The notes beneath the pieces are model-generated. The model was not told where the DNA came from. It saw nothing but the letters and a program-made list of their open reading frames with translations, and ran no database searches. Made by a program: the position numbers and the translations under genes. This document shows, piece after piece, positions 3,945 to 9,065 of a stretch of 29,115 nt of DNA. Every line of letters begins with the position of its first letter. The stretch's first letter is position 1. Origin of the DNA: a virus; the IMG/VR virus record IMGVR_UViG_3300000547_000006, positions 1 to 29,115 of that record. One strand, 5' to 3'.

Positions 3945-6230
3945 TTATGGCGCTATTGCTGCAGCATTCCAAATTGTGTCAGAAGGCGAATTAGGCTGTC
4001 TTATTGGTGGTGGCGGCGGATTATATACATTAGTAGTTGAACTATTATTTACAATATTGTTGTTAGTGCTAGGAGCGTTCACAATATTGTTTGTGTTGTT
4101 AACAGTTTCTTTTATTTGATTTTGCTCATTAGTTGCCATTGCCATTTGACTACTAAGTACTTCTGCCTTTTTATTAGATGGGGGCGAAATATTTTCACCA
4201 GTCTTTGGATTCAACCCAGCAAATTCATATAATGAATCAGGGATAGGATTCAAATTAATTTTACCGCCACCAATTTCAGTAAAGCCAAGATCAACTGAAG
4301 GCATATCTATCGTCATTGCATCTGGCGATGGCAATATGCCTTTTAGTATATTTTTGAAAAAGTTAATACCGATATTAGCAGCATCGCTCAAAAATTGTGA
4401 TAAGTCAACTTCCTTAATAGATTCAGTAATTGAATCGAAAACTGATGTTACTGAATCCCAAATTGATGTCCCTATATTTTTAAGATTAGCGGTTATATCG
4501 TCTATTGATGGAATAAAGTCAGCAAGCTTAGGGCTTTCTTCCATTTCTTTTAGCGCTAACTCTTTTTGTTCACGATTTTTAGCCAATTGCTTTTCAATAC
4601 GAGATCTTTCTTCACCATTCAGTGGCTTTAATCCCCTTGCTTCAAGTATACGCTCTGATTCTTCAACGCTGTATTTGCCATCTTTAAAAGAAGTTTGAGT
4701 TACTATGTTTCCAGTTTCAGGATCAACAGCAACTGCACCAGCAGTTTTAGTTTCTTGTTCAATCAGTTTTGCGTCATTGACTTCTTTTTGCAAATTTTCT
4801 TCATTGTCGCTAATTCCAAAAAACGATAAAACTGAGCCAAACTTATCTTTAATAAATTTAGATACGTTACCAATTGCATTTTGTAAATATTCAAGTGGAT
4901 AAAACAGTGCATCAATAATTTTGGTAAATGTTTCTTTAAAGGAAAATGAATCTAAAAGCTTTTCTGCTTCTTCAAAACCAAATGCGCCTAAGATCCAAGA
5001 TACTGCATTTTTGATTAACTCGAGTGGAGCTGAAACTATTGAAGTAAATAATTCATATACACTTTGTAAAATTTCAACTATACCGCCTTCCTTAAAGTTG
5101 TTTACAATAGTATTAATTAAATTTTTTACGAATTCGACAGGAGAAAATAATGCGTCAATAATTGTTGTAAATGTGTCTTCAAAGGAAAAAGAATCAAGAA
5201 TTTTTTCTGCCTTTTCAAATCCAAAAAATCCTAAGACCCAAGATACTGCGCTTTTAATTAAATCAAGAGGCCCAAAAATTAATGAATTGAATAGGCCTGT
5301 TACTGCGCCTTTGATTCCACCAATAATCCCTTCTTCACTAAATCCTTCGATAGTACCCTTTACAGTATCCCAAAGAGTTATAATTATTGTGAGTGGAAGA
5401 AATAACTTAGATGCAATACCAAGAGTTTTACTAAACACTCCAGCAAACGCTTTCAGTGTACCTGATAATCCAGAAAAGACACCACCTACTTTAGTAGCTA
5501 TTCCTGTTATATCTTTTAATGTTTTAAATGCAACAGCAAAGGGTTTAAAAAATGCAGCAACAGTTGCTTTAACACCTTGAAATATTTTTGATTGCGCAAT
5601 GCTAGTCTTTAATAAATTAAATTGAGCTGCAAGACTACCGAACAAAGATGTAATGGTACCTTTAATTGCAGTACCTATATTTCCTATTGTTGTAGATAAA
5701 GTTGTTCGTAGTGTTTTAAATTGCTTAACGATAGATGAACTAAAATTTTTAGTTGCTTTAGCAATTCCTTCGGTTATAAACTTCGGCGTAACAGCTTTAA
5801 AAAATAACTTAACTAAATTTGTAAATTGGGTTGTAAATAATTTTATGGCTTTTATTTGAGCAGATATTACACTGCCAATAGTACCTAATGTTATAGCAAG
5901 ACCAGTCAACAATCCACCTAAACCTACGCCCTCTTTTTCATTTTCTTTTTCTTCAAGTGTATCATTACCTAAATTTTCAAGTGCAGCAATTAGCCTATCG
6001 TTTTTTGCGTTTTCTTCACGTCTTTCTTCAAGTTCTTTAAGAGACTTTCCTTCAAAAAAATCTATTAAGTATTCTAAACTTTCAAAACTTTTTAAAAGCT
6101 CATCAAATTTTGTCGTAATGGTATCAGCTGTCAGTAACAAGTATTCATTAGTGTCTACTGTTTCTGACTTTAAGCCACTTATATTTGTATTAATTGTTTT
6201 TAGTTGAATTGTGACGTCTTCTAATGTCAT
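3945..6230 (-). CDS. Tape-measure-like tail protein (gp29-equivalent)
   Basis: This 761-residue protein is probably the tape measure that sets tail length and sits inside the tail tube, the job of gp29 in T4. Residues 1-100 are helical and coiled-coil-like, followed by a Gly-rich hydrophobic segment (about 103-127). Long amphipathic/hydrophobic helical stretches then run to about residue 470, including a second hydrophobic patch near 280-290. Two related units (about 317-373 and 399-455) share the pattern Ser/Ala-Trp-x-Leu-Gly-x-Phe-Gly-Phe-Glu. The C-terminus is Asn/Thr-rich with a Pro5 stretch. The gene directly follows the gp26/T-domain and membrane-protein genes, the usual place for a tape measure after tail chaperones. 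AGGAA before the ATG supports the start. Direct gp29 similarity is weak, so the assignment rests on composition and context. Confidence 0.65.
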   Translation of the reverse strand: MTLEDVTIQLKTINTNISGLKSETVDTNEYLLLTADTITTKFDELLKSFESLEYLIDFFEGKSLKELEERREENAKNDRLIAALENLGNDTLEEKENEKEGVGLGGLLTGLAITLGTIGSVISAQIKAIKLFTTQFTNLVKLFFKAVTPKFITEGIAKATKNFSSSIVKQFKTLRTTLSTTIGNIGTAIKGTITSLFGSLAAQFNLLKTSIAQSKIFQGVKATVAAFFKPFAVAFKTLKDITGIATKVGGVFSGLSGTLKAFAGVFSKTLGIASKLFLPLTIIITLWDTVKGTIEGFSEEGIIGGIKGAVTGLFNSLIFGPLDLIKSAVSWVLGFFGFEKAEKILDSFSFEDTFTTIIDALFSPVEFVKNLINTIVNNFKEGGIVEILQSVYELFTSIVSAPLELIKNAVSWILGAFGFEEAEKLLDSFSFKETFTKIIDALFYPLEYLQNAIGNVSKFIKDKFGSVLSFFGISDNEENLQKEVNDAKLIEQETKTAGAVAVDPETGNIVTQTSFKDGKYSVEESERILEARGLKPLNGEERSRIEKQLAKNREQKELALKEMEESPKLADFIPSIDDITANLKNIGTSIWDSVTSVFDSITESIKEVDLSQFLSDAANIGINFFKNILKGILPSPDAMTIDMPSVDLGFTEIGGGKINLNPIPDSLYEFAGLNPKTGENISPPSNKKAEVLSSQMAMATNEQNQIKETVNNTNNIVNAPSTNNNIVNNSSTTNVYNPPPPPIRQPNSPSDTIWNAAAIAP

Positions 6231-6232
6231 TT

Positions 6233-6634
6233 TTATTTCCTAGAAATCCAAGCTGTAACTCCGACATAAGCTCCAGTAATACCTGCACATGAAATATAAA
6301 ACATTGCTAATAAATCACTTAACACATCAATCCTAGATTCACTAATTGCTGGTGTAAATAAAACAAATGTAACTATACCTATCATTACAAGAGAAACCCA
6401 TGCCATTCTTTTTTGTGCATTGAGTTTTTTACTTTTTATTTCAATATCATGCAATAATTGAGATAATTCAACTTCTCTTCGATTTAGGGTTCCATCATTA
6501 TTATAATCATAATTTGACAATTTTTCGTTGTCAATTGGATATTCATATTCATAGTTTAAATGCGAATATCTTGGATATTCGTATTCACGATTTGGATACA
6601 AATATTTTTCTCTATGTGGCCTATGATAGGTCAA
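6233..6634 (-). CDS. Two-span membrane protein with an EF-hand-like loop
   Basis: The 133-residue protein has a Tyr/Pro-rich N-terminus with repeated Tyr-Glu-Tyr-Pro. A canonical 12-residue EF-hand loop follows at 43-54 (Asp43, Asn45, Asp47, Gly48, Thr49, Asn51, Glu54), then a charged helix and two hydrophobic spans at about 77-96 and 108-129 joined by a short acidic loop. It ends Trp-Ile-Ser-Arg-Lys. I recall similar membrane proteins with unknown roles in marine T4-like phages. The start is TTG (6634-6632), overlapping the T-domain stop as TTGA, with AAGGA correctly spaced upstream; no ATG lies near the N-terminus. It sits between the tail-chaperone frame and the tape measure. A holin or an injection-channel factor is possible but unproven. 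Confidence 0.65.
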   Translation of the reverse strand: MTYHRPHREKYLYPNREYEYPRYSHLNYEYEYPIDNEKLSNYDYNNDGTLNRREVELSQLLHDIEIKSKKLNAQKRMAWVSLVMIGIVTFVLFTPAISESRIDVLSDLLAMFYISCAGITGAYVGVTAWISRK

Positions 6635-6819
6635 TGTGTTTTCCTTTTTCGCAGTCTTTCATTTTCTTCTTTAATATATTCAACTAATAGTGCAATATAA
6701 ATTTCCCTTTCCCATGGTACCATTTCATTAAGTTCAGTTAAGCTATAATTATGATGCTGCATTAATGCAAAATTTACTTTATAATGATTAACAATTGATT
6801 CATGAGAAAGGGCTAGCCG
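6631..6819 (-). CDS. Frameshift-accessed T domain fused to gp26 (tail assembly chaperone-like)
   Basis: This frame has no suitable start of its own. It is open from a TGA at 6844-6846, passes under the end of gp26 and stops at 6631-6633. Entered by a -1 shift at 6819-6825, it adds 62 residues to the first 235 of gp26, a 297-residue fusion. The added part is helical and contains 'HHNYSLTELNEM' followed by 'VPWEREIYIALL' and a Glu/Lys-rich end. This is the style of the T part of G/GT tail chaperones, which bind the tape measure. The only ATG in frame (6762-6760) would give 43 residues but has no Shine-Dalgarno. It occupies the place where an annotator might put a small gp51-type hub assembly gene. 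The stop overlaps the TTG start of the next gene. Confidence 0.7.
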   Translation of the reverse strand, partial: RLALSHESIVNHYKVNFALMQHHNYSLTELNEMVPWEREIYIALLVEYIKEENERLRKRKTH

Positions 6820-7523
6820 AAAAAATTGGCCAAACCTTTTATATCAATTTCATTATGTTCTCCACAATTTTTACATGTAAATTCCACTGGCAGAGATGCA
6901 GTTGGAATTGCCTCAATGAATTTTTTTATTTTAGAAAATTGCTCTGAATTAAGTGATTCAAGAAAATCTTTTAACTCAGATTTAGTTTGTTCTTTTGCAT
7001 CAAAAATTTCATTATCAGAATAAATTGAATCAATACAATTAATAATAACATCAAAAATTTTATCAATTGTCATATTTTCTTCATTAAAATCTGACTCAAC
7101 AACAGAATTAACTGAAGGATATTTCATCATAATCCCAACATTATCAGTTAATTGAATTTTTCTTTTTGACTTATCAGGAACATTAACAGTAATGTTTTCC
7201 AAATTAACACTTACATCGTTTTTAGTATCGCATGATTTGCAATTAAGACCTATTTCAGTAGTTTCCCCAACTGACTTACCTCTTAATTGAAGAATAATAT
7301 ATTCAATATCAAATAGTGCTAATGATTCAACATCAACAGTATCTTCAGTACAAGATTTAATGACGTCTTTGAGAGCACGTATCATTTGTTTTTGATCATT
7401 CGATTCCATAGCTAACATCAAGACTTTTTCTTCTTTAACAAGATATGGTCTATATACAGCTTTTTTACCACTTGATGGAATTGTCATTTCATATTTTGGT
7501 GTATCTAACTTAGGCAAAGCCAT
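6813..7523 (-). CDS. 26: Baseplate hub subunit gp26 (T4_baseplate family)
   Basis: gp26 takes part in assembly of the T4 baseplate hub. The 236 residues compare with 208 in T4. The N-terminus ('MALPKLDTPKYEMTIPSSGK' then 'YRPYLVKEEKVLMLAME') is typical of the T4_baseplate family, as is 'LALFDIEYIILQLRGKSVGE' at about 68-87. Two Cys-x-x-Cys pairs, Cys95/Cys98 and Cys217/Cys220, form a probable zinc ribbon bracketing a helical insertion. The start has AGGAG on the minus strand with nine bases of spacing. It ends in TAG immediately after the slippery site, so two products are expected: gp26 alone and the gp26-T fusion. The G/GT-like layout raises the possibility that gp26 here is a tail assembly chaperone rather than a hub structural part. 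Confidence 0.85.
   Translation of the reverse strand: MALPKLDTPKYEMTIPSSGKKAVYRPYLVKEEKVLMLAMESNDQKQMIRALKDVIKSCTEDTVDVESLALFDIEYIILQLRGKSVGETTEIGLNCKSCDTKNDVSVNLENITVNVPDKSKRKIQLTDNVGIMMKYPSVNSVVESDFNEENMTIDKIFDVIINCIDSIYSDNEIFDAKEQTKSELKDFLESLNSEQFSKIKKFIEAIPTASLPVEFTCKNCGEHNEIDIKGLANFFG
6819..6825 (-). promoter_or_regulatory. Predicted -1 ribosomal frameshift slippery heptamer
   Basis: On the minus strand the heptamer is T TTT TTC in the gp26 frame (codons Phe-Phe), one Gly codon before the TAG stop. It fits the X XXY YYZ rule: both tRNAs re-pair after slipping back one base. An AAAAGG at 6840-6835 ends nine bases upstream and could act as an internal Shine-Dalgarno stimulator, as in E. 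coli dnaX. I see no convincing downstream hairpin. The site lies inside a window of only 31 bases where both frames are open. Confidence 0.7.
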
Positions 7524-7535
7524 AATATGTTACTC

Positions 7536-9065
7536 CTATTTTATATTAAAGTTAACTGGATTTGCGTTCGGCAAATTATCAATTTTTGAATCTTTACTTA
7601 CTGGCGCCGTTATTGTAGGCAGTGTTTTTAAATCTATTTTACCTGTAATCGTTGGTGCTAATCCTGGTAATTCAGATGTGTTTATGGTACCAAGTTGTTG
7701 ATTGGCCAATGTTGGAAGACTAGTCGCATCAAAGAGTCTTGCGGGTGGTGGTTCTAATCCTGGTAATTCAGATGTGTTTATGGTACCAGGTTGTTGATTA
7801 GTCAATGTTGGAAGACTAGACGCATCAAAGAGTCTTGTAGGTGATGGCTCTAATCCTGGTAAATTAGTTATATTTGCTGGATTTTGAAATGGGCCTACAG
7901 GAGGAGGAGGCTGTAAAACTGGTGTAACTGTTGGTAAATTAAATCTAGTGACTGCAGATGGAACAATAGGTCTTGGTAGTTCTAAAGATGCGCCAGCATT
8001 TTCAAATGCATCATTAGCTCTAGGCAGTGAAATAGGAATTCTTTGCCCAGTAAATGAATCATCGCGTCTAGGCAGTGAAATAGGAATTCTTTGCCCAGTA
8101 AATGAATCATCGCGTCTAGGTAAAGAATTTTCTATAATACTGGAGTTATTAGACAAACCAAATTCTCGTGGCGGCAAATTTTCAAAATTAGCAAATCTTT
8201 CAAATTGTGTGTCATTAAGCGGTAACTGTATACTGGATATACGTGAATTTGAAAATGATTCTACAACGGGTAAAGAAATAAAATCAGGTTGATTTATAAA
8301 TGCTTGATTATTTTGTGGAAGATTTCTAGTGTCAAATCCTAATTCATATTCAAACGGACTAAATTGACGTGGTAAAAATTGTTCAGCTGGTTGATTTATA
8401 AATGACTCAGATTTTCTTGGCAATCTTTGTTCTGGCGTTTGATTTTTGAATGGGTCAGTCTTTATGGGCAAGAATTGATCAGCACCTTTGATATTAAATG
8501 ACTCAGATTTTCTTGGTAATTCAAGTATTTGCTCACGACGAGAAAATAGTGTTTCTTCTTTCCAATTATCGTATGAAAGTACAGCAGTACATCTCAATAC
8601 TTGATTTTCATTACTATTTGATAATTCCATACTGCTTAAAGAAGTGGGATAAGCTGCATATAAAGTAATTACTTTAGTAACTTCGTCATTTTGATTTAAG
8701 TGTTCTATTGTAACCTGTCGCGTGTATATATCTTTTGTATTCACAGTATACACACCCAATTGTTCATCAATATCATTGATAACAAGTGACTGCCATGTTT
8801 TAAGGTAATTCCATGAATACCAATCATTTGTTAATATAAAGCTAACTGTAACATCTTCATTTAAAAAGGCATAAGGCTTTTTGTATGACTTCATGGTTGT
8901 CATGTAGTCAGACGTAGCAATTTGTCTTCCTGGCAATGTTACTGAATCGCAAAGTATATTAAGTTTGTCTCCATCACCCCTATCAAGTATTATTCGATAG
9001 CGATTACCACGGGCTGTACCACCTGATGATCTAAATTGCGCGAGCATCTGATCTACAGTACTCAT
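7536..9065 (-). CDS. Tail-tube-like protein with long 16-residue LP-repeat tail
   Basis: Residues 1 to about 175 look like the gp19/tail-tube fold of T4-like phages: 'LPGRQIATSDYMT', an aromatic 'PYAFLNEDVTVSFIL', 'TWQSLVIN', 'AYPTSLSSMELS' and a final strand ending Tyr-Asp-Asn-Trp. From residue 183 to the end (509) the chain is about 20 consecutive units, mostly 16 residues long, each opening Leu-Pro and often carrying Phe at position 8 (for example 'LPRRDDSFTGQRIPIS', present twice in exact copy). This tail is Pro/Asn/Ser-rich and probably extended or disordered. It overlaps the upstream gene by four bases (ATGA) and ends 12 bases before gp26. I do not know a named T4 counterpart; a tube initiator, terminator or minor tube protein are candidates. 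Confidence 0.7.
   Translation of the reverse strand: MSTVDQMLAQFRSSGGTARGNRYRIILDRGDGDKLNILCDSVTLPGRQIATSDYMTTMKSYKKPYAFLNEDVTVSFILTNDWYSWNYLKTWQSLVINDIDEQLGVYTVNTKDIYTRQVTIEHLNQNDEVTKVITLYAAYPTSLSSMELSNSNENQVLRCTAVLSYDNWKEETLFSRREQILELPRKSESFNIKGADQFLPIKTDPFKNQTPEQRLPRKSESFINQPAEQFLPRQFSPFEYELGFDTRNLPQNNQAFINQPDFISLPVVESFSNSRISSIQLPLNDTQFERFANFENLPPREFGLSNNSSIIENSLPRRDDSFTGQRIPISLPRRDDSFTGQRIPISLPRANDAFENAGASLELPRPIVPSAVTRFNLPTVTPVLQPPPPVGPFQNPANITNLPGLEPSPTRLFDASSLPTLTNQQPGTINTSELPGLEPPPARLFDATSLPTLANQQLGTINTSELPGLAPTITGKIDLKTLPTITAPVSKDSKIDNLPNANPVNFNIK
7658..7849 (-). repeat. Two near-identical 96-bp tandem units in the LP-repeat gene
   Basis: Units at 7658-7753 and 7754-7849 differ at a handful of positions and are followed by a partial third copy from 7850. 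Each encodes 32 residues, that is two of the 16-residue LP units ('LPGLEP...RLFDA' then 'LPTL.NQQ.GTINTSE'). The length being exactly twice the basic unit shows expansion by in-frame duplication. Confidence 0.9.
8020..8115 (-). repeat. Perfect 48-bp tandem duplication in the LP-repeat gene
   Basis: 8020-8067 and 8068-8115 are identical over all 48 bases and encode the same 16-residue unit twice. Neighbouring LP units are diverged, so this copy is recent and points to ongoing expansion or contraction by slippage or recombination. There are no spacers, so it is not a CRISPR array. Confidence 0.95.

Follow-up and report, generated by a model that had tools for sequence, protein, structure and literature searches.

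The stretch of DNA analysed here (the window) comprises the 29,115 bases of an IMG/VR virus record, IMGVR_UViG_3300000547_000006. The locus in question is its gp26 gene, located on the minus strand, the end of which carries a slippery heptamer and overlaps a second open frame, here called T, in the -1 register. The features of the locus are:

6813-7523, minus strand: gp26, putative tail assembly chaperone (TAC) gene of the TAC-N type ('G'); 236 residues in the zero frame, stop codon TAG at 6815-6813; assigned on PF12322 T4_baseplate, phrog_150 and the N-terminal fold.
6819-6825, minus strand: slippery heptamer T TTT TTC, in phase with the gp26 codons AAT TTT TTC.
6634-6818, minus strand: putative 62-residue extension in the -1 frame ('T' or TAC-C; gp51 in databases); assigned on phrog_634 and a coding-type codon-position pattern.
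6631-6633, minus strand: TGA, the T-frame stop.
6844-6846, minus strand: TGA closing the T frame upstream.
6835-6840, minus strand: AAAAGG, a weak Shine-Dalgarno-like element and possible stimulator; relatives have (G)GAGGG there.

The gp26 gene ends with AAT TTT TTC GGC TAG, i.e., the heptamer is found one codon ahead of the TAG. Following a -1 shift the product would read FF-RLALSHESIVNHYKVNFALMQHHNYSLTELNEMVPWEREIYIALLVEYIKEENERLRKRKTH and terminate at the TGA at 6633-6631, resulting in a fused protein of 235 + 62 = 297 residues with its junction at Phe235-Arg236. The T frame is shut upstream by the TGA at 6846-6844, and the shift must therefore happen downstream of this codon. The first ATG (Met) in the T frame is located 20 codons past the shift and is preceded by no ATG, GTG or TTG. 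The original prediction for this DNA had placed the heptamer, the stops and the frame at these coordinates and had claimed that T has no start before its 20th codon; both proved correct when the minus strand was checked base by base. It is very probable, judged from the evidence below, that gp26 is a short tail assembly chaperone and that a -1 slip at T TTT TTC yields a GT fusion with a helical T. That the shift is programmed, as was originally proposed, is supported by the conserved relation between heptamer and frame and by a T frame that evolves like a protein ahead of any start codon.

Related gp26 loci were collected from IMG/VR and from annotated phage records. In a first pass every one of the 179 loci with T next to gp26 had it in the -1 frame, and T TTT TTN was present at all 158 distinct junctions. 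Records from outlying lineages were deliberately added after this pass, and clustering at 70% identity gave 130 representatives. The heptamer together with T in the -1 frame is kept in 121 of these 130 (less than 70% identity), which was the check proposed along with the original prediction, and the 121 fall into 18 clusters at 40% identity. The variants are T TTT TTC (63), T TTT TTT (42), T TTT TTA (15) and T TTT TTG (1), and the distance from the heptamer start to the gp26 stop is 10 nucleotides in 95 representatives, 7 in 21 and 16-34 in 5. Lineages with the heptamer include Kyanoviridae, Pelagibacter phages, Methylophilales phages and Pootjesviridae, and it is also present in Pseudomonas phage pf16, Aeromonas phages 65.2 and AsFcp_1, and Vibrio phages VH7D and D483.

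From the codon usage of the same genes a heptamer is expected with a probability of about 0.40 per gene, while other xFF/xFL sites in these genes carry heptamers in 15 of 277 cases. The combined log10 P for heptamer conservation is -55, a figure that is not to be taken literally because the loci share kinship. An open -1 frame could in principle arise by chance or as a sequencing artefact, and long open frames are indeed not rare in the window, where a stretch of 62 open codons starts, in one frame or another, at 17% of positions. However, such an explanation is already refuted by conservation, as the same architecture is found at 121 distinct loci, and the product of the -1 frame is homologous to a tail family (phrog_634); its probability is next to negligible. 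Among the 77 in-frame X XXY YYZ heptamers in the genes of the window, only for the one in gp26 does the -1 frame stay open beyond 24 codons (64).

At the protein level gp26 matches PF12322 T4_baseplate (E 6.1e-67) and phrog_150 (E 1.3e-71), and the T domain matches phrog_634, 'baseplate hub assembly catalyst' (E 2.7e-26). Relatives of the T extension are encoded in 640 phage records. The AlphaFold2 model of gp26 has a mean predicted local distance difference test score (pLDDT) of 93. An initial Foldseek search on PDB was uninformative at the top, and the chaperone matches were obtained from a second-look alignment. Residues 1-95 gave Rbstp2171 (3fgx) as the top structural match (Z 8.1, root-mean-square deviation (rmsd) 3.8, 85 residues aligned), followed for the N-terminal domain by HK97 gp13 (2ob9; Z 7.1, rmsd 4.3, 84 aligned) and YqbN (3klu; Z 6.7, rmsd 4.2, 85 aligned), with the next row at 4.5. 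All three proteins are phage tail assembly chaperones (PMC9603447). A TAC-N fold of the N-terminal domain is thus supported by the predicted model, in line with the proposal that gp26 is a G-type chaperone. The 62-residue helical domain claimed for T is conserved, and AlphaFold2 (63 residues counted from the heptamer, mean pLDDT 82) predicts helices over almost its entire length, at residues 2-24, 29-34 and 37-62. Sequence-profile searches of PDB with G and T gave nothing meaningful, and the gp41 rows listed for T were rejected as chance matches (E of at least 0.05).

Codons 4-18 of the T frame lie before the first ATG of the window. In this interval the differences are distributed over the three codon positions as 0.29/0.20/0.51 in pairs with 60-80% nucleotide identity and as 0.26/0.16/0.58 in pairs with 80-95% identity. 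By this pattern the T frame evolves as protein ahead of its first possible start, which argues against an independent small T product, translated by restart or coupling once ribosomes have reached the gp26 stop and initiated either at the Met 20 codons past the shift or at a non-standard codon such as ATT. Annotators do treat T in this way: 11 of the 15 fetched annotated records with the heptamer give it a separate coding sequence, the other 4 (S-WAM1, S-H9-1, VH7D and 65.2) omit it and none joins the frames. Likewise, TAATG or TGATG is found at the gp26 stop in some relatives (VH7D, P10VF). Start codons were counted up to T codon 16, with the heptamer codons numbered as residues 0 and 1; by this count 55 of the 121 early T frames are without ATG, GTG or TTG, 36 have GTG or TTG only and 30 have an ATG. 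Yet the heptamer is retained even in these 30, the only candidate starts in the window fall inside the conserved domain, and the stimulators described below are located where a -1 shift requires them. A separate T is on balance very unlikely.

Stimulatory signals were sought on both sides of the heptamer. Upstream, pairing energies were computed with an E. coli-type anti-Shine-Dalgarno 9-mer, which may not be that of the host. In up to 83% of representatives, 9-mers with their last base 10 to 5 nucleotides ahead of the heptamer reach -4 kcal/mol or better in pairing to the 3' end of 16S rRNA, and the best anti-Shine-Dalgarno match has a mean of -6.3 vs. -5.1 in synonymous recodings (z -8.8). 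Downstream, the RNA folds more stably than when the T frame is recoded synonymously (mean z -1.69, t -11, 39% below -2), and perfect stems of at least 8 bp beginning 4-9 nucleotides past the heptamer are present in 10 of the 121 representatives, compared to 0.6 expected. Six loci, all with T TTT TTA (L049, L079, L089, L061, L032 and L057), have in common a perfect 8-bp stem 5 nucleotides downstream (GGGCTCTC/GAGAGCCT and variants). Two pairs covary in this stem, which is absent from the remaining T TTT TTA loci and is a candidate lineage-specific frameshift stimulator.

Joining of the frames by RNA polymerase rather than by the ribosome, through slippage that alters the number of U residues in the messenger RNA, would be compatible with the run of six T found in 121 of 121 heptamer-bearing representatives. 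Such a run is short for polymerase slippage, however, and it invariably sits in the phase T TTT TTN, a constraint that a polymerase would not require. The Shine-Dalgarno-like element upstream and the hairpins downstream moreover act on ribosomes, and we regard polymerase slippage as extremely improbable. With ribosomal frameshifting as the preferred explanation, the heptamer would be the fixed element while stimulators are swapped between lineages, being a Shine-Dalgarno-like element, hairpins of 8-11 bp with unrelated sequences or, as in the window, neither clearly. It is tempting to speculate that the G:GT ratio could in this way be adjusted to the host and to genome composition, although we give this slightly less than even weight.

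Several results weigh against the reading of gp26 as a frameshifted chaperone gene. First, Z scores of 7-8 are modest for a predicted gp26 model, and the T model gave no informative structural match, as PDB returned unrelated helical folds only. Second, an early ATG, absent from the window, could permit a separate T product in the 30 relatives that have one (about a quarter). Third, the signals around the heptamer of the window are weak. The AAAAGG that had been suggested to stimulate slipping is well placed (6840-6835, nine nucleotides upstream), i.e., where most relatives have a Shine-Dalgarno-like element, but at -3.9 kcal/mol it is no better match than synonymous recodings (mean -4.2 kcal/mol), so that only its position and not its strength stands out. 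A stimulatory hairpin was sought in the window and none was found (z +0.4), nor does the closest relative (L001) have a clear downstream hairpin. As the window is without a clear hairpin or a strong Shine-Dalgarno match, the efficiency of slipping there is uncertain.

The comparison with T4 clarifies the relation between the two frames. PF12322 extends across residues 1-201 of T4 gp51 (E 3.9e-52) and phrog_150 across residues 3-248, while residues 200-243 match the T profile, and T4 gp26 and gp51 can be aligned directly with each other (E 2e-06). Going by these matches, T4 gp51 combines G and T in a single frame and T4 gp26 is a G. The G of the window has the PF12322 domain of this family, and its T domain is common to gp51. 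The 3' end of T4 gp26 reads TTC TTT and is without the heptamer. In T4 and two other sampled Tevenvirinae gp26 and gp51 are two divergently oriented genes, whereas the window has overlapping frames with a heptamer; frameshifting therefore appears to give these phages what T4 encodes in two genes. This favours the earlier suggestion of a fusion whose T half is the 'gp51-like' gene.

The exceptions to the heptamer architecture are Tevenvirinae and Ackermannviridae. In seven of the nine representatives without heptamer (T4, CHI14, a Proteus phage, K393, 1.255.O, TSW001 and L117) the profile found no T beside gp26; in T4, CHI14 and the Proteus phage gp51 is a separate gene. The remaining two are Stenotrophomonas phage IME-SM1 (L184) and an Ackermannviridae record (L195). 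IME-SM1 was considered as a case of +1 shifting (2715-2725) and rejected, as it has TTTTT where its relative Marzo (L196) has TTTTTT; one T is probably missing from the record by a homopolymer error, and the gp26 open reading frame thereby continues in the wrong frame. A T-like domain is also found in the -1 frame of gp26 in Ackermannviridae and Vibrio phage K393 (L186, L195, L197, L199, L200 and L201), with LF or IF instead of the conserved FF and with CTT TTY or ATT TTC as the site rather than T TTT TTN. This motif presumably resembles the shift site of T7 gene 10. In PM10 (L195) and cp19 (L201) the T frame has no ATG, GTG or TTG until 32 bases beyond the gp26 stop. In Aeromonas phage TSW001 (L185, 2720-2940) gp26 ends with CTT TTC and no heptamer; behind it, a terminator-like inverted repeat lies within an open -1 frame that reaches a T-like segment.

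Tail chaperones of T4-like phages were reportedly identified by Vladimirov, Gautam and Davidson in 2022, in a study said to name T4 genes 26 and 51 and to find frameshifting conserved in several T4-like groups. A passage of the PRFect paper describes some T4-like phages as having a short TAC gene and a separate longer fused TAC gene, without frameshifting (PMC10885494), and one in the phage Adele paper refers to poly-T sequences as -1 signals already known from the TAC-N genes of T4-like phages (PMC12846349); for these points both passages cite Vladimirov et al. (2022; Virology 566:9-15). As TAC frameshifting in T4-like phages is already published, the uncultured marine T4-like case described here is another example of a known mechanism. 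What may be added is the uncultured marine lineage itself, the counts over 121 diverged loci, the statistics on Shine-Dalgarno and hairpin stimulators, and the observation that records never join the frames. Annotation pipelines should merge the gp26 and T frames.

In the Vandenendeviridae/Andersonviridae TAC locus, as presented for phage Adele, a -1 frameshift occurs at a poly-T motif, itself conserved, shortly before TAC-N ends, and the T frame contains no stops (PMC12846349). The locus is likened to the present one by its poly-T site and open T frame, although the families differ and the motif is GTTTTT instead of T TTT TTC. The lambda gpG/gpGT pair is outlined in PMC5009743 as a short chaperone together with an extended form, made at low level by -1 frameshifting, that binds the tape measure protein. 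The same combination of short chaperone and -1 frameshifted extension is predicted for gp26-T, whereas the slippery site is G GGA AAG in lambda and T TTT TTC in the window, and gp26 exceeds the single-domain chaperones in length and carries two CxxC pairs.

If gp26 is a TAC-N like lambda gpG, most ribosomes would end at the TAG to produce the 236-residue G. A minority would slip back one base with tRNA-Phe on TTT TTC, so that T TTT TTC is re-read as TTT TTT, and would go past the TAG to produce the 297-residue GT with its helical C-terminal T domain. If lambda is a guide, the product of the tape measure gene just downstream would be coated by many copies of G and a few of GT, with T serving to recruit the subunits of the tail tube, and G and GT need not remain in the virion. 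For this locus we infer the slipping, its efficiency and the binding to tape measure and tube.

The neighbouring genes are:

7536-9065, minus strand: tail-tube-family gene directly upstream of gp26; phrog_45 (E 6.7e-34) and PF06841 (E 2.7e-08).
6233-6634, minus strand: open reading frame of 133 residues separating T from the tape measure gene; phrog_27150, of unknown function (E 3.3e-07).
3945-6230, minus strand: likely tape measure protein of 761 residues, presumed client of G/GT; assigned on phrog_4200 (E 4.5e-10) and position.

The gene order is the one by which TAC genes are recognised, as a tape-measure-like open reading frame lies downstream of T with a single 133-residue frame in between. 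This 133-residue frame has a TTG start that overlaps the end of T, and Mosig, Melnitz and Rhizobium phages likewise have short open reading frames at this position.
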